DNA of 64,000 nt from positions 62,001 to 126,000 of the forward strand of contig NZ_FOZK01000006.1 of the NCBI RefSeq assembly GCF_900114435.1. The letters run 5' to 3'. The DNA comes from Halomicrobium zhouii. GTDB lineage: Archaea > Halobacteriota > Halobacteria > Halobacteriales > Haloarculaceae. A model generated the notes under the pieces. The model did not search any database. It had not been told where the DNA came from and worked only from the letters and a program-made list of their open reading frames with translations. Below, in pieces: positions 4,986 to 47,097 of this stretch. Position 1 is the first letter of the stretch. Each line of letters begins with the position of its first letter. The translations under genes and the position numbers were made by a program.

Positions 4986-6134
4986 TCAATCGTTGGTTTC
5001 GTCGTCTATGAATCTCTCAACTGCCTGCCCAACCGCACTACCCAGTCCCCAACAGCGCTCGGGCGTGGTCTGATTCTCCTGGGTCCCGAAGTACGGAACT
5101 TCGAGCGCACGCGAGACAGTCGCGCCCTGCCGGTCGAGAAACCCGGTGAAGGTCGTACCGCCACCTCGACCACCGGGTTCCGCGAATCCCCCCGCCACGC
5201 GAAAGCACAGCGAATTCGCTCGGTCGTCGGACTCATCGTCCAGAACGCGTGCGAAACGCCGGTCCGCATCGGTGGCCCCAGCGGGGGCGCCAGCAAAGAA
5301 CACCCGATCGTGAGGAGACCCCCACTTGAACGGCGAATGGAGATCCAGTCCGAGTGGAATCGTCCCGCCGAGACTGCGCACGTATCGTTTGATGGCGCTC
5401 GTCGTCGAGTAGAGTGGGTCAATTTCGTCGGTGACGCCGTTGGACTCCGCGTAGTCCCGGTTGTGGTCGTGGGGCAACCGCTGCTTCCCCTGGTCGCCGC
5501 GCTGGACGCCGTCGAGGTCGACGAACGGGACGACGTGGGCACACCACGACTTCGGCGGGCGGTCAGCTAGTTTCGACAGGATCCCTTCGAGTACGAGCGA
5601 CGCCGGCGACTCACAGGCGTGGTGGCGACAGGTTATTACTGCGTGAGTATCCGACCCCGGATCACCGATCCGAAGGACTGGAACAGTCCTGCCCCGTTCC
5701 GTCGTCGTCAACGTAGACCGCTCGATCTGGCCTTGACTATCGACGGCGCTCCAGAACCGTTCGAAGTCCTGCCGGACGTAGGGAAGCGAAAACGCGAAGA
5801 ACGTCCGCTCTCCCGGACCGAATTCGTAGCGAAAGGCAGTTCGGTCGACCGTCGCGTCGGCACCGAGCCACGACCACTGCGCGCAATCCTGACTTACGGC
5901 GGGGCCCCATGGGCCAACGACTTTCTCCGGGAACGACACGGTCACTATGCGGTTCTCGTCGCTCTCGATAGAGACGTTCCAGTAAAAGAGCCAGTCGTCG
6001 CCCGCGTCGCGCAGGTCCGGTGCGAGGTTGACTGTATCGCCGTCGACGGTGAGGTCTGTGGCGTTCGCACCCGGATAGCCGAGAAGAACGCGGAGGCCAG
6101 CGTCGGCAGCAGCGACGGTTCCGTCCTCGTCCAT
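4986..6134 (-). CDS. M14-family zinc carboxypeptidase-like protein
   Basis: 382 residues. An N-terminal beta domain (to ~residue 120) is followed by an M14 catalytic domain, as in cytosolic carboxypeptidase-like enzymes. The first zinc motif HxxE is in CRHHACESPAS, the third zinc His is in LDLHSPFKWG, and the catalytic Glu is probably that of SRALEVPYFG. VVPFVDLDGVQRGDQGKQRLPHDHNRDY matches the substrate-loop region of the family. No export signal is seen with the ATG 6134 start (MDEDGTVAAADAG). An in-frame start 11 residues upstream is possible. The protein probably removes C-terminal residues from a peptide or an amide; the substrate is unknown. Confidence 0.75.
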   Translation of the reverse strand: MDEDGTVAAADAGLRVLLGYPGANATDLTVDGDTVNLAPDLRDAGDDWLFYWNVSIESDENRIVTVSFPEKVVGPWGPAVSQDCAQWSWLGADATVDRTAFRYEFGPGERTFFAFSLPYVRQDFERFWSAVDSQGQIERSTLTTTERGRTVPVLRIGDPGSDTHAVITCRHHACESPASLVLEGILSKLADRPPKSWCAHVVPFVDLDGVQRGDQGKQRLPHDHNRDYAESNGVTDEIDPLYSTTSAIKRYVRSLGGTIPLGLDLHSPFKWGSPHDRVFFAGAPAGATDADRRFARVLDDESDDRANSLCFRVAGGFAEPGGRGGGTTFTGFLDRQGATVSRALEVPYFGTQENQTTPERCWGLGSAVGQAVERFIDDETND

Positions 6135-6249
6135 GGTTCGACGGCCACGTGCACTGGTGATAAACACTGTGAGGACAGCGTAACAACAACTCCGTCCGCA
6201 TGGGGGCCTCTACGGCGGGCCGTTCCGGTTGCAGGGGCCAAAGCCGGTA
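6135..6249. other. Intergenic spacer before repeat element A
   Basis: Together with 6720-6852 this brackets the repeat element. No gene is supported here. The sequence after the carboxypeptidase start is GC-rich without a clear TATA box on the minus strand. Confidence 0.4.
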
Positions 6250-6719
6250 GAAAGCCCTCGGCCCGCTCGGGCGTTCTCTGTAGGATATCCTCGCTCGCTC
6301 GGATAGGGCCCACGGAGAACGCCCGACCGCGCCTCGCCCTTTTATCCGCCAGGACAGCGTTGCTCGCGCGGCCTCACTGCTCGCGGGTCACGCCGTTCCC
6401 CGCTCGCTCGTCCGGCGACGCTCGCTGCGCTCGGCTCGCCCGCTGTTCGGCCCGCGCTCCCGGTTGACTTCCCACACCTCCCCGGTCGCTCGCCGTCCGG
6501 CGAGCGACACGCTTCCTGACCGCTCCGGGACCGCCCGGCCGGGAGCGAGTGGTCGAGCGACGGCGAGACCCTCGTGACCAGGGGAAGGGCAGGGCTGCGG
6601 CGCGGTCACCTGGTGGAATGAAAGGGCGAGGCGTGGTCGTCGGTTCCCCGACGACGCAAGCACCGAACGAAGTGAGGCGCGCAGCGAGTCGCGGAACCAC
6701 GAGCGCGCCGAGGGCTTTC
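6250..6719. repeat. Long non-coding inverted-repeat element, copy A
   Basis: A ~470-bp element bounded by 19-base inverted repeats with one mismatch: GAAAGCCCTCGGCCCGCTC at 6250-6268 and its complement at 6701-6719. A second, subterminal inverted repeat lies at 6331-6353 and 6609-6632 (GCCTCGCCCTTT / AAAGGGCGAGGC). The whole element aligns in reverse orientation with 46481-46943, including an identical 23-base core at 6576-6598. Homology continues ~15 bases beyond the right end (CTGTTTGCGGTC). Open frames inside are Arg/Pro-rich and not shared between the copies, so I treat it as non-coding. It may be a MITE-like element or a structured RNA. Confidence 0.8.
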
Positions 6720-6852
6720 TCCTGTTTGCGGTCGTTCCGTCGGCCATTGGCGTGCAAGAGAGAAGTTTACTCCTGCTCGTTTCCGTCATCACTGCAATCA
6801 GCGACCACACCACCCGAGTTACGCTTATCAGTCAGTCAGCAGAATCACGGCT

Positions 6853-15154: not shown

Positions 15155-16321
15155 CTATCCGCGCTGCAACTCGGCCAGTCGCTCTAGCGAACTCTGTTTC
15201 GTCTCGCGGTCGAGTTCCGAGCCTTCGAGCATCGAGCGCATGAACTCCACGGACTGGTCGTAGCGCTCGCGCTCGACGGGATGGGGCGTCGCGTCCTTGC
15301 CGCCGTGGGCGTAGGCGTACTTCGCCGGGTCCTCCCGGGAGCTCTCGGCGTCGTAGACGAGTTCGCCGATGAGCGCCAGCGCCCGGAGCGATCCGGGACC
15401 GACGCCCTCCAGGTCGACGAGCTCCTCGTAGTCGCTGGGCTGGACCTCGTAGGCGCGCTGGAGCTGGTCGACGGCGTCCATCGAGAGGTCGGCCTTGCTG
15501 AGTTCGTGGTGGCTCGGCATCGTCAGGTCGGGGTCGGCGGCCAGTTTCTCGCGCAGGCCGCCGTCGTCGCCGGTCGCGTCACTGGCTGGTCCCGCCGTTC
15601 CACCGTCGCCCGTGAAATCACCTAACGAGCGCTGGCCCTGGAGTTCGCGCTTGAGATGCGCCGGGTCGTCCTGCACGAGGTCGACGGAGATCTCGCGGAT
15701 CTCGTCGGACGCGTCGGCCGTCAGGTCCAGCGGGTCGGCCCGTTTCTCGTCGGAGCAGATGGCCGCCTGGGGCTCCTCGACGAAGCTGTCGACGTCGTCG
15801 GAGCGCCAGTGGTAACGCCGGGCCATGTCCTCGCCCATCCCCTGCTGGACGACGCACCAGGCGCCCAACTCCGAGACGGCCATCGTGTGGTGGTAGATGT
15901 CGTAGGAATCCTGCACGCAGCCGTTGTCCACGGCGGCGCTCAGCCGGGAGGTCCGCTTCAGCTCCTCGCGCGTGCCCGTCGAGAGGTCGACCGAACTGGC
16001 GTCGATTTCGTCGGGGGTCTTCAGCGAGGTCGCGCCCTTCCCGCCGACGACGGTGACGCCGTGTTCGTGGCCGTCCAGCGCTTCCTTCAGCGCACCCATC
16101 GTCGTGGTCGTGACGCCGGAGGAGTGCCAGTCGAACCCGAGGACGCACCCCAGCGCCTGGAACCAGTAGGGGTCCGAGAGTCGCCGGACGAGTTCGTCCT
16201 GGCCGTACTCATCGACGACGGCCTCTGCGACGACCTCGGCCAGGTCGACCATCCGGTCGAAGAGCCACGACGGGGCCGACCCGCTGTGGAGCGGCAGGTC
16301 GGCGCTGCTGCGGCGAGCCAT
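15155..16321 (-). CDS. DUF763 protein
   Basis: 388 residues. The N-terminus carries the clear DUF763 signature: ADLPLHSGSAPSWLFDRMVDLAEVV, RLSDPYWFQALGCVLGFDWHSSGVTTTTMGALKEAL, VVGGKGATSLKTP, YDIYHHTMAVSELGAWCVVQQGM. A helix-hairpin-helix-like stretch occurs near the end (YEELVDLEGVGPGSLRALALIGELVYD), hinting at nucleic-acid binding. Residues ~230-265 form an acidic Gly-rich linker. Start ATG 16321 (MARRSSADLPLHSG) is chosen over an upstream in-frame start. Function unproven. Confidence 0.9.
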   Translation of the reverse strand: MARRSSADLPLHSGSAPSWLFDRMVDLAEVVAEAVVDEYGQDELVRRLSDPYWFQALGCVLGFDWHSSGVTTTTMGALKEALDGHEHGVTVVGGKGATSLKTPDEIDASSVDLSTGTREELKRTSRLSAAVDNGCVQDSYDIYHHTMAVSELGAWCVVQQGMGEDMARRYHWRSDDVDSFVEEPQAAICSDEKRADPLDLTADASDEIREISVDLVQDDPAHLKRELQGQRSLGDFTGDGGTAGPASDATGDDGGLREKLAADPDLTMPSHHELSKADLSMDAVDQLQRAYEVQPSDYEELVDLEGVGPGSLRALALIGELVYDAESSREDPAKYAYAHGGKDATPHPVERERYDQSVEFMRSMLEGSELDRETKQSSLERLAELQRG

Positions 16322-16427
16322 GTCGGTCCCGGCTACGGCATCGACCGACAAGAGGGACCGCCGCGGAGCGAAAGTGGAGCGCGGGCGGTCTCTGGACCGG
16401 ACCGCGCGGTCGGCCGCTGATCAGCCG

Positions 16428-17450
16428 CTATTCGTTCACCAGGTGGAGGTCGCTGGCGTCGAGGCCCAGATCGAGGCGGTCGCCCTTCGAGATACCGCTC
16501 CCGTCCCCGTCGAGCGCAACCGTGACCTCGGGACCGCCGTCGAGCGCCGCGACGGCCTGGACCGTCCCGCCGAGGTAGAACACGTTCCGCACCTCGCCGG
16601 ATATCGGGCCCGACCCAACCGTGAAGTCCGCCGGGCGGACCGCGAGGTTCGCGTCCTCCCGCGCCGGGAGGTCGGGCGCCTCGATCGCGGCGAAGCCGAA
16701 GTCCACGCGGCCGCCCCGGACCGACCCGGAGAGGACGTTCGACGTCCCCACGAAGTTGGCGACGAACTCGTTGGCGGGCGACTCGTAGACGTCGGCGGGG
16801 GAGCCGACCTGCTCGACGACGCCGTCGTTCATCACGGCGATGCGGTCGCACATCGCCATGGCCTGCTCCTGGTCGTGGGTCACGTACAGCGTCGTCACCC
16901 CGAGGTCGTCGAGCAGTTCCCCCAGTTCGGTCCGGAGGCTCTGTTTCAGCTTCGCGTCGAGGCCGGTCATCGGCTCGTCGAGCAGGAGGATCCGCGGCTC
17001 GATGGCGAGCGCGCGAGCGAGGCCGACCCGCTGTTGCTGGCCCCCGGAGAGGGTCCGCGGGTCGCGGTCGGCCAGTTCCGCGATGTCGAGCAGTTCGAGC
17101 AGTTCGAACGCGCGCTCACGGCGTTCCGTCTTCCCGACGCCGTGCATCTTCGGCCCGAACGTGACGTTGCCGAGGACGCTCATGTTGTCGAACAGGGCGT
17201 AGGACTGGAAGACCAGGCCGACGTTGCGGTTCTCGGGCGGGGCGTGCGTGACGTCGTCGCCGTCGTATCGTATCGCGCCGTCGGTCGCCGTCTCGAATCC
17301 GGCGACGAGTCGCAGCGTGGTCGTCTTGCCACACCCCGATGGGCCGACGACGCCGAGCACTTCGCCGTCCGCGATGGTGAGCGAGACGTCGTCGACAGCG
17401 GTGGTCGAGTCGAAGCGTTTCGTGACGTGGTCGAGTGCGACTTCGGACAT
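16428..17450 (-). CDS. ABC importer ATP-binding subunit (PotA/FbpC-like)
   Basis: 340 residues. Walker A GPSGCGKT (36-43), signature LSGGQ (134-138) and Walker B ILLLDEP (154-160) are intact, with the H-loop in YVTHDQEQA. After ~235 a TOBE-type regulatory domain follows, including GVVEQVGSPADVYESPANEFVANFVGTSNVL, usual in polyamine/Fe3+/sulfate importers. It is the last gene of a four-gene operon and lies 3 bases after the second permease. It powers import of the substrate captured by the lipoprotein at 19214-20350. Confidence 0.93.
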   Translation of the reverse strand: MSEVALDHVTKRFDSTTAVDDVSLTIADGEVLGVVGPSGCGKTTTLRLVAGFETATDGAIRYDGDDVTHAPPENRNVGLVFQSYALFDNMSVLGNVTFGPKMHGVGKTERRERAFELLELLDIAELADRDPRTLSGGQQQRVGLARALAIEPRILLLDEPMTGLDAKLKQSLRTELGELLDDLGVTTLYVTHDQEQAMAMCDRIAVMNDGVVEQVGSPADVYESPANEFVANFVGTSNVLSGSVRGGRVDFGFAAIEAPDLPAREDANLAVRPADFTVGSGPISGEVRNVFYLGGTVQAVAALDGGPEVTVALDGDGSGISKGDRLDLGLDASDLHLVNE

Positions 17451-17453
17451 GTG

Positions 17454-18287
17454 TCAGATCCTCCGTATGGCGCCGCGGTTGCCGACGATCTGCAGGGCGA
17501 TGGTCACGAGCGCGACGAGCAGGAAGAACACCGACACTGCGGCGGCGGCGTTCAGGAACGACGCGTTCGTGATGTTGTTGAACAGGAAGATAGAGAGCGG
17601 CGGGGTCCCCCGCGAGTAGACGATGTAGGAGAAGTTGAACTCCGCCGCGGCCAGCGTCCACGAGATGATCGACCCGGCGACGATGCCGGCCTTCGCGTTC
17701 GGGACGATGACGGTGAGGAACGTTCGGGGCCAGGAGGCACCCAGCGAGCGCGCGCTCTCCTCCAGCCGCTGGAGGTCCATCGACTGGAAACTCGACTGGA
17801 CGGCCATCACCATGTAGGGCGCCTTCAGCAGCGAGTAGCCGACGACGAGCGCGACGCCGGACGTCGACAGGTCGGGGTAGGTCCGGAGGAAGGCGATGCC
17901 GAGGATGATGCCGGGCGCGAGCGGGAGGATGGCGAGGACGTTCACCCAGTCGCGGCCGAGGAACTCGTACCGGGCGACGGCGTAGGCGATGGGGACGCCG
18001 ACGATCAGGTTGATGAGGACGCCGGCCAGCGCGAGGCCCGCGCTGTAGGCCAGCGACGACCCGACGGAGACGTCGGCACCCACCCCGGTGCCGACAACGA
18101 CGTCGTTCCAGTGGTCCAGGGTGAGGAACCCGCTCGGGAGCGGGCCGACCCACTCCGCCGCGAAGGAACTGACGAACGTGAGGACGACCGGGAGCGCGAG
18201 GAAGGTCACTGTCGCGGCCAGCACGAGCGTCACGAACTGGCGACCGTAGCGCGCCGAGAGACTCGGTCGCTCCGCGCTGGCGCCCAT
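17454..18287 (-). CDS. ABC importer permease, second subunit
   Basis: 277 residues, six predicted membrane helices and the binding-protein-dependent permease loop EESARSLGASWPRTFLTVIVPNAKAGIVAG (EAA motif), which docks on the ATPase. The ATG at 18287 shares one base with the TGA of the first permease (TGATG), so translation is probably coupled. A longer in-frame start is rejected because it overlaps the upstream gene. It belongs to the Fe3+/polyamine (PotC/FbpB-like) permease type. Confidence 0.92.
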   Translation of the reverse strand: MGASAERPSLSARYGRQFVTLVLAATVTFLALPVVLTFVSSFAAEWVGPLPSGFLTLDHWNDVVVGTGVGADVSVGSSLAYSAGLALAGVLINLIVGVPIAYAVARYEFLGRDWVNVLAILPLAPGIILGIAFLRTYPDLSTSGVALVVGYSLLKAPYMVMAVQSSFQSMDLQRLEESARSLGASWPRTFLTVIVPNAKAGIVAGSIISWTLAAAEFNFSYIVYSRGTPPLSIFLFNNITNASFLNAAAAVSVFFLLVALVTIALQIVGNRGAIRRI

Positions 18288-19210
18288 CAGATGCTCACCT
18301 CCGCGCTCGTGTACCGCAGCGTCAGGAACGTGAACGCGAGGACGAACGCGAACCACACCGTCGCCATCGCCGAGGCCTGGGCGATATTGAATCCCTGTGC
18401 GATCTCGCGGTCGATCTGGAGGGTCCAGACGAGGAGGCTCTTCAGGATCAGGATGGTGCCGAAGATGGCCAGCGCCGTCCGGAACACGAGGACGAACGCG
18501 CCGACCAGCCCAGGCTTGATCTGCGGGAGCGTCACGTACCGGAACGTCGCGAGCGGCGACGCGCCGAGGCTCCGGGCGGCTTCCTCGGCGTCGGTGTTCA
18601 CCTCCGCGTACGTGCCCCGCAAGAGGAGCAGTGCGCGCGGGATCATTGAGTAGAGGTACGCGAAGAACAGGCCGACGACGCTGGTCGCCGTCGCCAGATC
18701 GATCGGGGACCGCCCCGAGAACGCCGCGAGGACGTTCGTGATCAGCCCCGTGTTGCCGAAGAGGACGATGATCATGAACGCCGCGACGATGCCCGGCAGG
18801 CTGTTCGGGAACGAGAGGACGGTGAGGATGGCCGACTTCGCCGGCAGGTCGTACTTTTCCAGTGCGTGGGCGACCGGCACGGCGACGGCGATGGACGCGA
18901 CCGTCGTCGCCAGCGCGAACCAGAGCGTGTTGACGGCGATGGTCCGGTAGTACGGGTCGGTCACCAGTCGGCGGTAGTACTCCGGTGTGAACCCCTCGGT
19001 GACGAGGCGTTTCTCCGAGACGCTGATCCGGGCCATCTCCGTCAGCGGGACGACGCCCGAAAACAGCAACAGCGCCAGGAACGGCAGACAGAGCGCGACG
19101 ATCCGGCGCCGCTCGCGCTGTCGCTCGGTCAGGGGCGACACGAGCGAGGGGAGCGTCGCCCGCCCGGCGCCAGAGGCGCCGCCCTCCACAGAGTCTGCAC
19201 CCGTCGCCAT
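18287..19210 (-). CDS. ABC importer permease, first subunit
   Basis: 307 residues. A cytoplasmic N-terminus of ~35 residues is followed by six membrane segments. The EAA loop is EEAARSLGASPLATFRYVTLPQIKPGLVGAF. FFAYLYSMIPRALLLLRGTYAEVNTDAEE precedes it, as in PotB/FbpB-like subunits. It starts 3 bases after the end of the binding-protein gene. Heterodimer with the next gene product is expected. Confidence 0.92.
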   Translation of the reverse strand: MATGADSVEGGASGAGRATLPSLVSPLTERQRERRRIVALCLPFLALLLFSGVVPLTEMARISVSEKRLVTEGFTPEYYRRLVTDPYYRTIAVNTLWFALATTVASIAVAVPVAHALEKYDLPAKSAILTVLSFPNSLPGIVAAFMIIVLFGNTGLITNVLAAFSGRSPIDLATATSVVGLFFAYLYSMIPRALLLLRGTYAEVNTDAEEAARSLGASPLATFRYVTLPQIKPGLVGAFVLVFRTALAIFGTILILKSLLVWTLQIDREIAQGFNIAQASAMATVWFAFVLAFTFLTLRYTSAEVSI

Positions 19211-19213
19211 CGG

Positions 19214-20350
19214 TTACAGGCTGGCACCGCGCGTGATCTCCTCGATGATGGCCGACTGCTTCTCGTTGAGTTCCGCCTGGTCGACCGTGAACTCCGTCTC
19301 GTCGTAGCGGCTCTGGTCGGGGAACTCGTCCGGCATGTCCATCTCCGGGGCCCGGATGGGGCGGGCGTAGGCGTCGAGGAAGTGCTGCTGGCCCTCGATG
19401 GAGAGCACGTAGTCCATGAACAGCTTCGCCGCCTCCGGGTTCGGCGCATTCTTCAACAGGGCGTAGCCGTACAGCGCGTTGAACGCCCCCTCGTTACCGT
19501 TCTCGCCGCCTAGGAGCGCGACGCCGACGTTCTCCTCGGCGACGTCCTCGTTGTTGTACTTCAGGTCCAGCCCGGAGTAGTCGTACCGGATGAACGAGGC
19601 GTACTCGCCGCGCGTGAACTGGGCCAGGAAGTTGTCGGTGAACTCCGCGCCGCCGTCCAGGATCTCGTTGTAGTAGTCGATCACCGGCTGGACGTCGTCG
19701 AGGCTCCCGCCACGGGCGTTGTTGATAGAGAGCGCCGCGGCGAGGCCGACGGCGGCCTGGGGCGTCTGGAGCGCCAGGTCCTGCATGATGTCGGGGTGGA
19801 GCAGGTCCTCCCAGGTCTCTGGCTCGTCGAGGCCGCGCTCCTCGTAGACGTCCGTGCGGTAGGTCAGCGCGGTCGTCACCTTCCGCGTCCCGGTGACGTG
19901 GCCGTTCGCGGTCTTGGCGCCCTCCGGCACCTCGTCCCAGTTCGCGGGCTTGTACGCCTGGGTGAGCCCGTCGTTCATGGCCTGGACGTTGTAGCTGTAG
20001 CCGCCGTTGAACGCCGAATGCGTCGGCTTCTGGGCGTGCGACCGGGCGTCCTGGAGGGCCTCGCCGGAGGACCGGTCGTCGTCGTTGAGCTGGACGCCGT
20101 ACTTCTCCTGGAACGCCGACATCACGGAGGGCCAGTTCATCCACCCCGACTGGACGCAGTAGATATACAGCTTCTCTTCCGTGGGGAACGTCCCCGAATC
20201 GACCGTCGTCTGCGAGTCGCTGTAGCCGACTTCGTACTCCTCACCGCCGGACCCGCCGGCGCCGCCCAGGATGCCGGTACAGCCCGCCAGTCCGCAGGTC
20301 ATCGCGGCGCCCGTCGCGCCGAGCAACCGTCTCCGCGTCGTGTCTTGCAT
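19214..20350 (-). CDS. ABC importer substrate-binding lipoprotein
   Basis: 378 residues. The N-terminus has a twin-arginine signal (TTRRRLLGATGAA) and a lipobox LAGC with the modified Cys at 24, so it is exported folded and lipid-anchored outside the membrane. The body has the two-lobe binding-protein pattern (LYIYCVQSGWMNWPSVMSAFQEKYGVQ; QTPQAAVGLAAALSINNARGG; NPEAAKLFMDYVLSIEGQQHFLDAYARPI), closest in layout to Fe3+, spermidine or phosphonate binding proteins. The substrate cannot be read from the sequence. First gene of the operon. Confidence 0.9.
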   Translation of the reverse strand: MQDTTRRRLLGATGAAMTCGLAGCTGILGGAGGSGGEEYEVGYSDSQTTVDSGTFPTEEKLYIYCVQSGWMNWPSVMSAFQEKYGVQLNDDDRSSGEALQDARSHAQKPTHSAFNGGYSYNVQAMNDGLTQAYKPANWDEVPEGAKTANGHVTGTRKVTTALTYRTDVYEERGLDEPETWEDLLHPDIMQDLALQTPQAAVGLAAALSINNARGGSLDDVQPVIDYYNEILDGGAEFTDNFLAQFTRGEYASFIRYDYSGLDLKYNNEDVAEENVGVALLGGENGNEGAFNALYGYALLKNAPNPEAAKLFMDYVLSIEGQQHFLDAYARPIRAPEMDMPDEFPDQSRYDETEFTVDQAELNEKQSAIIEEITRGASL

Positions 20351-20382
20351 ACGGACAAATGCCCCCCTGAGACGGAATTTAA

Positions 20383-20391
20383 CGTTTATAT
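20383..20391 (-). promoter_or_regulatory. TATA box of the ABC importer operon
   Basis: Read on the minus strand the sequence is ATATAAACG, about 33-40 bases before the ATG at 20350. That predicts transcription starting roughly 8 bases before the start codon, a very short leader. The flanks are AT-richer than the surroundings. Confidence 0.5.
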
Positions 20392-20532
20392 GAGATCCAC
20401 GTACGCGATGGGTGAACTGTCGATAGGTATGTCAGAAGCAAAGTGCTATTAAGCGATCAGTAGTGGACGTACTTCGCGCGCTCTGTGGTCGCGAAGTCGG
20501 TGGACGGCGCGGAACCTGACGCCCCGGCGCCT

Positions 20533-23019
20533 TTACTGTCGGTACGCCAGCAGCGCGGCCCCGGCGATTCCGACGAGGACGAGGACGGCCCCCGCGCCGG
20601 TCACGCCCCCGAAGCTGGTCCCGGGCGTCTCGCCGTCGTCGGTCTCACTCGTCGCCCCAGTGGTCGATTCGGCTGTCTCCGTGGCCGGCGCCTGGGCCGC
20701 GACGGAGAGCGTCGTGCTGGCGTCGCCGGCGGTCAGGGTCTGTTCACCGGCCGCCTCGACCGGCACCGAGAACGTCACCGTCTCCGAGCTTCGGGGACCT
20801 ACCTCGACGGTCCGTGACTCGCCGTCGACCGTCTCCCCGTCCACCGCGAGCGAGACGTTCGTCGTCCCGGCGACTTCGCCGGTGTTTGCGACCGTCGCCG
20901 TCACGTCGACGGTGTCACCCGCCATGGGTTCGTCGTCCGTGACGGCGAGGTCGGTGACGGTCACCACCGGGCGCTCGACGCCGACGGTGTACACCGGGGC
21001 GGCGCTGGCTTCGGCGCGATAGACGTAGGTGTCGTCCGTCTCGTTCACCACCGTCGTCTCGACGGCGTCCGACCCGCCGTCGACGTCGCGCCACAGCGTC
21101 ACGTGCTCGGGGTCGGCGTCCGCGGCGTCGAGGCGGTCCTTCGCGACGCGGAACCGCACCGCCGCCTCGTCCCCGTCGAGGGACTCGGTCCCGTCGACGG
21201 TGAGGGACGAGAGCGCGTCGAACCCGGCGACGTCGTCGGCCGTGACGCTGTCTGGCTCGTCGGCGTGGGCCCGCACCGTCAGCGAGACCGAGTCGTTCCC
21301 GTCGGTGTGGACGACGAGTCCCTCGTAGGCGACCGCGTCGCCGCTGGCGTTCGCGTCGAGGTCGACGTCCACCGCGGCGCCGTCGGGCGCCCCGCTGACG
21401 TCCACGACGCTCGTGCTCGCGTTGATTCGCTCGACGTCGACCGTCGCGTCCGATTCGTCGGCGTCACTGGGCGGCGCACCCCCGCCGCTGCCACCATCGC
21501 CGCCACCGTCGCCGGAGGGCGCCGATGGACTGCTACTGGTGTCGTCCGACGCGTCGTCGTCGCCGGACGAACCGTCGTCCTCTTCGGGCGGATCCGAGTT
21601 CTCTGGTGGATCGGGGTTTTCCGGCGGATCAGCGTCGTCTGGAGCGTCTGTCTCTTCCGGCGACTCGGTTTCGTCGGGTACCTCGGTCTCCGCTTCGTCG
21701 CCGGAGTCCCCGCCGTCGACGGTACCGTCCTCGCTGACGGTCACGGTCTGCGAGGCGACGCCGTAGTGGGCGGGTTCGTCGCGGTCGATGTTCACCCAGT
21801 CGCCGACGCTCACGGTGACGGTGTACTCGCCGGGTTCCTCGAAGTGGTAGCTGTACTCGCTCCCGGCGCGGACTCCCCGGTCGACGACCGCACCGCTCTC
21901 GTTCCTGATCGTCCAGTTGTACGCCCGGATGCGGTCGTTGTCGGTGCTGTTCGAGGCGTCGAAGGTGCCCCAGTCGCCGGTCGCCACGGCGTCGGGCCCC
22001 GAGATGGCGGCGTCGGGCTTCTCGGGTTCGATGATATCGATTGTCTTCCAGGCCCAGTCGACCTGGTCATCGACGGTCAGGACGCCCACCGCGACGTCGA
22101 TGGTGTCGAACTGGCCGTCGTAGACCGACCCGTAGTAGGTCTGGTGGCCGAGGTTGCGTTCGTCGTCCTTCCAGACGTCCGGGTTGGTCTCGGCGATGTA
22201 GTAGCGGACGTCGGCCTCGGAGGTGGAGTTCGAGGCGTTCAGCCAGTACGTCGCACCCCACTCGACCTGGTCGGGACCCGAGAGCTCCGCGTTCGGCTGC
22301 GGGTCGTCGGTGACCGGTTCCTTCGGGACGACCTCGACCGTGCGCGTCGTCTCGTCGCTGTTGCCCGCCCAGTCCTCGACGGTGAGCGTGACGTCGTACG
22401 TCCCGGGGACGGCGTAGGAGAAGTTCTTCCGGCACTCGGTGCTCCCGGCGCCCCAGCCCAGGCCGTCGCCGGAGTGCCGTTCGACCGTCGGCCCGTACTC
22501 GAACGTCCACTTGCAACTGCGGATCCCCTGGTTGTCCGTACTCGTCGAGTTGAACCAGGAGCCCCCGTCCGTTCGCTCCCACTGCTCGCGCTCGACGGTG
22601 AAGTCGTCGCTCGAGGCGATGGACGCGTTTGGCGGCTCCGACTCGGTGACGGTGATCGTCTCCTCGTCCCACGCGACGTTCCCCTCGTCGTCGACGACGC
22701 CGAGCCTGACGGTGAACTGGTCCTGTCCGTCGCCGGTCCGGTCGCGCGCGTAGATGGTCGATTCGGTCGAGGAGCGCTGGTACTCGGTGGGCGCGTTCGG
22801 GTTGTAGTCCCAGCGGTACGCCGCGATCTCGCCGGTCGAGCCGCCCCCGTCGAGTTCGTAGAGCTGACCGCGTTCGATGGTCTCGGGCGCGTCGAGCACC
22901 GGCATCGGCGCGTCGTTGCCGGCGGTCTGCGCACCGACGGTGCCGACGGCGCTCGCCGGGAGCGACAGCACCAGTACCGCAGTCAGCACCAGACCGACCA
23001 CCCCTGTTCGATGGCTCAC
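20533..23019 (-). CDS. Large secreted surface protein with PKD-like, PGF-pre-PGF and CARDB-like domains
   Basis: 828 residues. A Sec-type signal (VGLVLTAVLVLSLPASAVGTVGAQ) is followed by three or four PKD-like repeats to ~430 (patterns such as SGPDAVATGDWGTFDASNSTDNDRIRAYNW and GEYTVTVSVGDW). Then come an Asp/Glu/Pro linker (~435-510), a PGF-pre-PGF domain (~520-690), a CARDB-like beta domain (PVVTVTDLAVTDDEPMAGDTVDVTATVANTG) and a C-terminal helix (GAVLVLVGIAGAALLAYRQ). The helix looks like an archaeosortase-sorted anchor, but the expected PGF tripeptide reads PGTSFGG. Probably an adhesin or S-layer-associated protein. Confidence 0.85.
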   Translation of the reverse strand: MSHRTGVVGLVLTAVLVLSLPASAVGTVGAQTAGNDAPMPVLDAPETIERGQLYELDGGGSTGEIAAYRWDYNPNAPTEYQRSSTESTIYARDRTGDGQDQFTVRLGVVDDEGNVAWDEETITVTESEPPNASIASSDDFTVEREQWERTDGGSWFNSTSTDNQGIRSCKWTFEYGPTVERHSGDGLGWGAGSTECRKNFSYAVPGTYDVTLTVEDWAGNSDETTRTVEVVPKEPVTDDPQPNAELSGPDQVEWGATYWLNASNSTSEADVRYYIAETNPDVWKDDERNLGHQTYYGSVYDGQFDTIDVAVGVLTVDDQVDWAWKTIDIIEPEKPDAAISGPDAVATGDWGTFDASNSTDNDRIRAYNWTIRNESGAVVDRGVRAGSEYSYHFEEPGEYTVTVSVGDWVNIDRDEPAHYGVASQTVTVSEDGTVDGGDSGDEAETEVPDETESPEETDAPDDADPPENPDPPENSDPPEEDDGSSGDDDASDDTSSSPSAPSGDGGGDGGSGGGAPPSDADESDATVDVERINASTSVVDVSGAPDGAAVDVDLDANASGDAVAYEGLVVHTDGNDSVSLTVRAHADEPDSVTADDVAGFDALSSLTVDGTESLDGDEAAVRFRVAKDRLDAADADPEHVTLWRDVDGGSDAVETTVVNETDDTYVYRAEASAAPVYTVGVERPVVTVTDLAVTDDEPMAGDTVDVTATVANTGEVAGTTNVSLAVDGETVDGESRTVEVGPRSSETVTFSVPVEAAGEQTLTAGDASTTLSVAAQAPATETAESTTGATSETDDGETPGTSFGGVTGAGAVLVLVGIAGAALLAYRQ

Positions 23020-46331: not shown

Positions 46332-46480
46332 AATTGACGGGTTCGAGACGTTCGTCCATGAATCTCCGGGACGTGATTCGAGAGTGGTGTCTGGTCCTCC
46401 CGTTGTCGGTGCGTACAACTGTGAGTTGAACGGATATTTTGGTGAGTTTTGCGTGGAAGAAACGAGACCGCCAACAGCCA
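46332..46480. other. Spacer between the fusion gene and repeat element B
   Basis: No gene is supported. It holds the upstream region of the Nudix-fusion gene (minus strand). The bases just before 46481 (GACCGCCAACAGCC) are still similar to the flank of element A, so the element's homology starts near 46465. Confidence 0.4.
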
Positions 46481-46943
46481 GAAAGCCCTCGGCGCGCTGG
46501 GGTCGCGCGACCCACGCTGCGCGCTTCACTGCGTTGCAGTGCTTGCGGGGTCGTGCTTCCCCCACCCCGCCTCGCCCTTTCAGTCCGCCAGGCTCAGCAC
46601 AGCACTGCAGCCCTGCCCTTCCCCTGGTCGCGCGATGAAACGCGCTCCCGGCCGACCGCCGCGCGGTTGCGGGGCGGTCAGGACGCGTGTCGCGCCGCTA
46701 GGCGCGACCGGGGAGGGGTGGCGGAGCCAATCGCGAGCGCAGGGAGGCGCCGACCGGAGGGAGGGGCCTCCGAACGAGCGAACGGGGAGCGAAGCGACCC
46801 GTGAGCGCGTTTTATCGCGCGAGCGATGCTGTTCCTGGCGGACTGAAAGGGCGAGGTGCGGTCGACGAAGCACGGCGCAGCAAGTACCGGAGCGAAGCGA
46901 GGAACGCAGCAAGCCGCGCGAGTCGAGCGTACCGAGGGCTTTC
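46481..46943. repeat. Long non-coding inverted-repeat element, copy B
   Basis: A ~463-bp element, homologous in reverse orientation to 6250-6719. Ends: GAAAGCCCTCGG at 46481 and its complement ending at 46943. Subterminal inverted repeat: 46569-46592 with 46834-46857, pairing at 23 of 24 positions. A 23-base block (46607-46629) is identical to the complement of 6576-6598. It also holds a perfect small hairpin ACGGG, GAGCGAAGCGA, CCCGT (46782-46802). Frames through it are Arg/Ala-rich and not conserved with copy A. It separates a minus-strand gene from a plus-strand gene. Confidence 0.85.
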
Positions 46944-47097
46944 GAGGTGGTTTTGTCCTTAGTCACGTCGGCAATTCGAACCCCACCGATCGCTAAGTCC
47001 GTGATCAGTACCGATCACTCCTCCTGTAATCGACAGCTGTCCGAACATCCATCCAAGAGTGCAGGCCCTTTTATCGACACGACCGATACACAGTCCC
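46944..47097 (+). promoter_or_regulatory. Upstream region of the phosphoesterase gene, with TATA-like TTTTAT
   Basis: TTTTAT at 47070-47075 is centred ~25 bases before the ATG at 47098, as for a leaderless haloarchaeal transcript. The rest of the spacer after element B shows nothing else. Confidence 0.45.

Follow-up and report, generated by a model that had tools for sequence, protein, structure and literature searches.

Why should a long non-coding palindrome recur on a haloarchaeal contig, and how did it come to be there? The question is raised by a 64,000-nucleotide stretch of the Halomicrobium zhouii genome (G000:C6:62001-126000, here called the window), for which an original prediction described a ~470-bp dispersed palindrome and offered three readings of it: a MITE, a recombination hotspot or a long structured RNA. 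The palindrome does belong to a real, multi-copy family, and the stretch from 6250 to 6719 is the core of one copy, not the whole element. The first reading held up, the second survives only in the sense that copies are substrates for recombination with one another, and the third was not supported.

Copy number and placement

Scanning the 4.25 Mb G000 genome with the end pattern GAAAGCCCTCGGCNNGCTC, allowing one mismatch, gives 159 matches, and G006, the nearest relative compared, has 207; the reversed control has none in either genome. BLAST within G000 returns 141 matches to the element and the inner pattern TCGCCCTTTCNNTCCNCCAGG gives 126 matches, and the 159 end and 126 inner matches therefore correspond to ~60–80 two-armed copies. 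As predicted, no reading frame is conserved among the copies, whose lengths differ modulo 3 and whose stop-free runs are unrelated, and no transposase gene was found within dispersed copies. Neither of the two outcomes named beforehand as fatal, a family limited to two members or a protein frame maintained across copies, was thus observed.

All 61 copies examined are intergenic (0/61 inside a gene), with 26 in tandem, 17 in convergent and 16 in divergent contexts, against a background of 115:29:54 for gaps of more than 80 bp. A role as transcription terminator was rejected, since convergent gaps are somewhat over-used but without exclusive preference. A CRISPR-like array was likewise rejected; no unique spacers separate the 51-bp terminal repeats.

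Anatomy of the element

Read inward from either end, the element comprises an outer flank, a terminal motif T (GAAAGCCCTCGG), a hairpin arm of ~100 nt, an inner motif I (CCTCGCCCTTTC) and then CAgTCCnCCAGG; between the inner motifs is an asymmetric middle of ~180–350 nt, beyond which the outer parts recur in mirror image. T is predicted to pair with T', I with I' and each arm with itself, forming a four-way junction.

The core of copy A runs from T to inverted T at 6250..6719, with its asymmetric middle reading on the minus strand. The matching ends originally described are the left T (GAAAGCCCTCGG; 6250..6261, plus strand) and the right T' (CCGAGGGCTTTC; 6708..6719, minus strand), which belong to an inverted repeat (I3) of 21 nt and 95%. 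The left arm (6250..6343, 94 nt) is of the type with a GGATATCCTC...GGATAGGGCC internal-loop motif and is unlike its G006 ortholog; the right arm (6620..6719, 100 nt) is of the type with CGCAAGCACCG. The subterminal inverted repeat at 6331–6353 and 6609–6632 was confirmed, and here the inner motif I with its CCAGG extension (6332..6353, minus strand) pairs with 6609–6631, the inner motif I' with a CCTGG extension (CCTGGTGGAATGAAAGGGCGAGG; 6609..6631, plus strand). The 276-nt middle (6344..6619, minus strand) contains conserved blocks, as well as a perfect hairpin, GTCGCTCGCCG-TC-CGGCGAGCGAC, at 6485..6508, and the equivalent stem shows compensatory variation in other copies (helix 11). The 23-base block GACCAGGGGAAGGGCAGGGCTGC (6576..6598, minus strand) is indeed common to both copies in the window, the identical 23-mer lying in the opposite orientation at 46607–46629; copies A and B are therefore oppositely oriented.

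Homology was also expected to run past the right terminal repeat, and in many copies shared sequence extends ~15–75 bp beyond the terminal motif. The outer right flank of copy A (6720..6794) is conserved with the orthologous copy in G006 and has no recognisable inverted end. Copy B (core 46481..46943, plus strand) has an outer left flank X (46407..46480) with a decayed inverted end, CGGTGCGTACAACTG, and an outer right flank Y (46944..47016) that ends in another (GATCGGTACTGATCACGG, read inward). Many ends bear further T units in a tandem row outside T, and the period depends on the species (51 bp in G000, 57 bp in Halosimplex, 75 bp in Haloparvum, and 60 bp in a MAG). The outermost unit is more degenerate than the next-to-innermost in 18 of 29 arrays of at least three units, less so in 1 and equal in 10; this is only a suggestion that arrays grow from the inner side, as any tandem array may decay at its edges and so add to the pattern. 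Tandem arrays of the T motif were seen at L132, L138, L196 (Halosimplex pelagicum), L175, L198 and L113, with periods of 51, 57, 60, 63 and 75 bp and, as a rule, the greatest degeneracy in the outermost unit.

Inverted ends and target duplications

In G001 and G003, which are sister species, inverted ends of the form GG(T/C)nGTGTTCAGATAAG (~17 bp) stand ~45 bp outside the core, for a total of typically 320 bp, which places the true boundary outside the palindrome, as had been suspected. Exact 8-bp target duplications flank 20 of 28 copies in these species, whereas 500 shuffled pairings gave 0.7 on average and never more than 4. Of the end GG..GTGTTCAGATAAG, the pattern GTGTTCAGATAAG has 54 matches in G003, 85 in G001 and 25 in a further genome, G002, and its reversed control none in the three. 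In G000 and G006 a decayed version of the end is present 45–95 bp outside T in 43 of 137 windows versus 17 of 274 control windows, the strongest matches clustering 72–76 bp outside T. Many G000 copies are without recognisable inverted ends, and inspection of copy flanks found no clean target duplication in G000; the presumed IS6 link of the G000 copies rests on homology to the sister species.

The family thus has terminal inverted repeats (in G001/G003, and decayed in G000), target duplications, dispersed copies with no transposase, and ends in common with an autonomous transposon of the IS6 family, which are the features of a MITE. We consider it likely that the element is indeed such a non-autonomous DNA transposon, with IS6-family ends around a palindromic two-arm core that can fold into a four-way junction.

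A probable IS6-type mover

IS6-family transposase genes (NF033587) lie between such ends at three loci in G002 (L343, L358, L364). In G000 too an IS6 transposase gene lies between these ends (L344; GGCAGTGTTCAGATTAG / GGCGGTGTTCAAATAAG, NF033587 E 2e-48), and in G001 an IS6 transposase gene directly adjoins one such end. Members of the IS6 family begin with GG, contain TGTT and produce 8-bp repeats, and the family includes halobacterial clades and two listed MITEs (PMC7986276); by that description the 8-bp duplication, GG tip and internal TGTT found here are those of an IS6-family derivative. Around the IS6 elements with these ends, no obvious 8-bp duplication was seen when flanks were read by eye.

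An IS6 ancestry is well supported by these sequence comparisons, and the sister species give good support to a mechanism of spread in which an IS6-type transposase would have moved the element in trans. In G000 the spread would have occurred long ago, the ends decaying since, and the copies would now persist mainly by descent, altered by gene conversion and unequal exchange. Because the core recurs in genera in which these ends were not seen (e.g. Halosimplex), other movers or inheritance may also be involved.

IS1595 was rejected as mover. The initial lead was in G001, where a degenerate transposase lies 310 bp away from an IS-like end, but the IS1595 copies of the genus have other ends, starting near CGCTCTT, and the neighbouring copy in L294 is a coincidence. 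IS1595-family transposases have no match in G000 or G006. G001 has ~30 (L317, L320, L322, L324, L325, L327), with ends near CGCTCTT, some of them nested beside IS6-type ends. Solo ends resembling GGCGGTGTTCAGATACGGATAAAAAGTGAGG, at L292, L293, L294, L295 and L296, are probably IS6 remnants.

A plasmid relative of the hairpin arm

The conservation of the core exceeds what is expected of passive MITE filler, and we count this against the IS6-MITE explanation. Among haloarchaeal plasmid records, 69 have a match to the left arm of copy B, at ~72–78% in the matches listed, and extending the match outward in Natrinema pJ7-1 leads to a 540-bp non-coding region present in 168 plasmid records, its first ~113 bp being homologous to the arm. 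At least 80% of the region is covered in 78 of the 168, identity is 82–96% in many, and there is usually one region per plasmid. Examples are Natrinema pJ7-1 (L366:4001-4550), Haloarcula marismortui pNG600 (L370:5001-5535) and pHME132 (L365:4001-4660), and G000 itself has two relatives of the region (C2:340332-340848 and C2:809745-810122). In most of 20 plasmid records examined, Haloarcula marismortui pNG600 among them, a gene follows the end of the region at a distance of a few bases to some tens, and it encodes an SSB/RPA-like OB-fold protein or a hypothetical protein of similar size, or in three records TFB; two records (L367, L368) hold a truncated region. It is possible that the region, which lies outside the window, is an origin, a single-strand initiation site or a transfer site.

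In a different view of the core, it is not filler. The arms would come from a functional single-strand DNA element of haloarchaeal plasmids, or have a common ancestor with it, the element being the 540-bp region upstream of the RPA/SSB-like or TFB gene, which may serve as a transfer origin, a leading-region promoter or a single-strand initiation site; IS6 ends would then have captured this module, and the resulting MITE would exploit host or plasmid machinery that acts on extruded hairpins. This is an arguable origin for the core, though we regard it as doubtful.

Pairing, probably kept at the level of DNA

In the structure predicted for 23 copies, 97.1% of cells are paired, 33 of 96 pairs have two-sided changes, and the covariation score of 0.222 is well above those of controls (0.077 when shuffled, at most 0.047 with slid partners). 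This pairing, together with strongly conserved unpaired blocks and an MFE z-score of -12 in one copy, could be taken to indicate a family of structured non-coding RNA genes of ~400 nt, present as many paralogs and giving a transcript that serves the cell. However, it seems quite unlikely that the element is such a gene. First, departures from pairing are G-U and A-C equally, with 19 and 20 respectively in pairs predicted on both strands and 138 and 139 in 274 arms. Second, energy differences between the strands do not exceed those of dinucleotide shuffles, the lower energy of one strand being what its composition predicts. RNA on either strand was rejected on this ground, as the MFE advantage (17/23 copies, and 17/17 plasmid regions) is gone against shuffles. 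Third, searches of Rfam found nothing credible. Finally, target duplications are present and copy number is patchy.

The equal G-U and A-C departures and the composition-level energies therefore suggest that pairing is maintained at the DNA level, and probably it is kept there. The hairpins would either matter as DNA, or their pairing would be restored by hairpin-templated repair, a process that produces compensatory changes without selection. Selection on DNA hairpins and repair of this kind are indistinguishable from these data.

Distribution, occupancy and recombination

The inner motif has at least one match in 109 of 391 Halobacteria genomes and in 43 of 86 genera, with one to 141 copies per carrier genome; its reversed control matches two genomes, once each. 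Carriers include Halosimplex, Halorussus, Haloparvum, Halonotius, Halovenus, Halomicrococcus and Halomarina, and chance probably accounts for the matches found in one Poseidoniales and one Synechococcaceae MAG.

Most G000 copies occupy the same place in G006 and are mostly fixed between genes. Among 22 copies judged by the spacing of their flanks in G006, 18 are occupied there, 2 are rearranged, 1 is of empty length (L008) and 1 could not be assigned. At L008 the alignment supports insertion; the intergenic sequence has diverged too far for a duplication to be visible. G006 has copy B, which G004 and G005 lack, its site in these two being between a divergent gene pair less than ~130 bp apart. 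Elsewhere in the window, 5.2 kb at 15275–20556 correspond to ~50 bp in a colinear G006 contig.

Copies recombine with one another, and one breakpoint of chromosomal rearrangement falls within copies. Set against its ortholog, copy A is a mosaic: the part right of 6435 matches G006 and the left part joined to it does not, and a stretch at 4990..6435, containing a gene and the left part of the copy, is absent from G006, which has ~210 bp there. Copy B has flanks orthologous with those in G006 and exchanged internal modules. One copy in G006 connects two sequences that are apart in G000, the left flank of the copy at C1:137.6k and the right flank of that at C1:240.4k, and both G000 copies have the same orientation, as expected for direct-repeat recombination; the breakpoint is seen from one side, G006 being a draft in which one of the contigs ends in a copy. 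It is in this sense, as a recombination substrate, that the hotspot originally proposed is borne out.

The conserved blocks common to all copies, their presence across the class, the retention of most copies at orthologous places and the homologous plasmid region, usually one per plasmid and adjoining an ssDNA-binding protein gene, are also what might be seen if a transposon happened to contain a chromosomal site that the host maintains for segregation, replication or architecture. Nonetheless, copy number ranges from none to over 140 among related species, which is unexpected for essential sites and makes this very improbable. Finally, a Y1 (IS200/IS605-type) transposase might read the hairpins and move the element in single-stranded form, in the manner of REP/REPIN or PATE elements, which it resembles in its imperfect subterminal palindromes, inverted doublets, extragenic sites and long vertical persistence (PMC3119063, PMC3116915). 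This is highly improbable and largely refuted by the target duplications, as the sister species have these 8-bp duplications and clean inverted ends, PATEs by definition have neither, the full element adjoins 0/10 Y1 loci, and one genome with four Y1 genes carries no element.

Comparison with known systems

No description of this abundant haloarchaeal repeat was found in the literature searched, nor any match in Rfam; it can now be assigned a likely mover, ends and a target duplication. It would be a MITE whose body, and not the ends alone, is conserved across a whole class. Its copies lend themselves readily to rearrangement. The plasmid region, non-coding, strongly conserved and adjacent to an ssDNA-binding protein gene, offers a specific candidate for a site that functions when archaeal plasmids replicate or transfer.

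Foldback transposons of eukaryotes (FB, Galileo) likewise have long inverted repeats with tandem sub-repeats, exchange between copies and rearrangement breakpoints. The likeness is one of anatomy only, the transposase class being different. Only the plasmid relative resembles the Frpo-type single-strand promoters of plasmid leading regions (PMC11541004), in being a hairpin-rich non-coding region immediately upstream of an SSB-type gene; it differs in being archaeal and ~540 bp long, any transfer or promoter activity in it being putative.

REPINs and BIMEs associated with RAYT (PMC3116915, PMC8049555) are also inverted doublets of imperfect palindromes, extragenic and persistent, with mosaic evolution. 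The arms described here are much longer (~100 bp) than REPs, the element has IS6-type ends and 8-bp duplications, and no linked Y1 (RAYT) transposase gene was found, so membership was rejected. The PATEs and MITEs of Haloquadratum (PMC3119063), the five MITE families being compared here by description, are haloarchaeal, transposase-free and present in many copies, with near-terminal palindromes. PATEs are defined there as without inverted ends or target duplications, whereas the element has both in sister species and is not one of them. The closest counterparts are the two IS6-family MITEs in ISfinder (Varani et al. 2021, PMC7986276), compared here by description, which have the same GG-tipped TGTT ends and 8-bp duplication, no transposase, and a size of ~230–340 bp, similar to the 320 bp of the element in sister species. 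What sets it apart from them is its class-wide spread, at tens of copies per genome, and its build, with tandem terminal repeats and a large palindromic core that can form a four-way junction. MITEs of IS6 type are already known, and what is unusual in this IS6-derived one is its conserved cruciform core.
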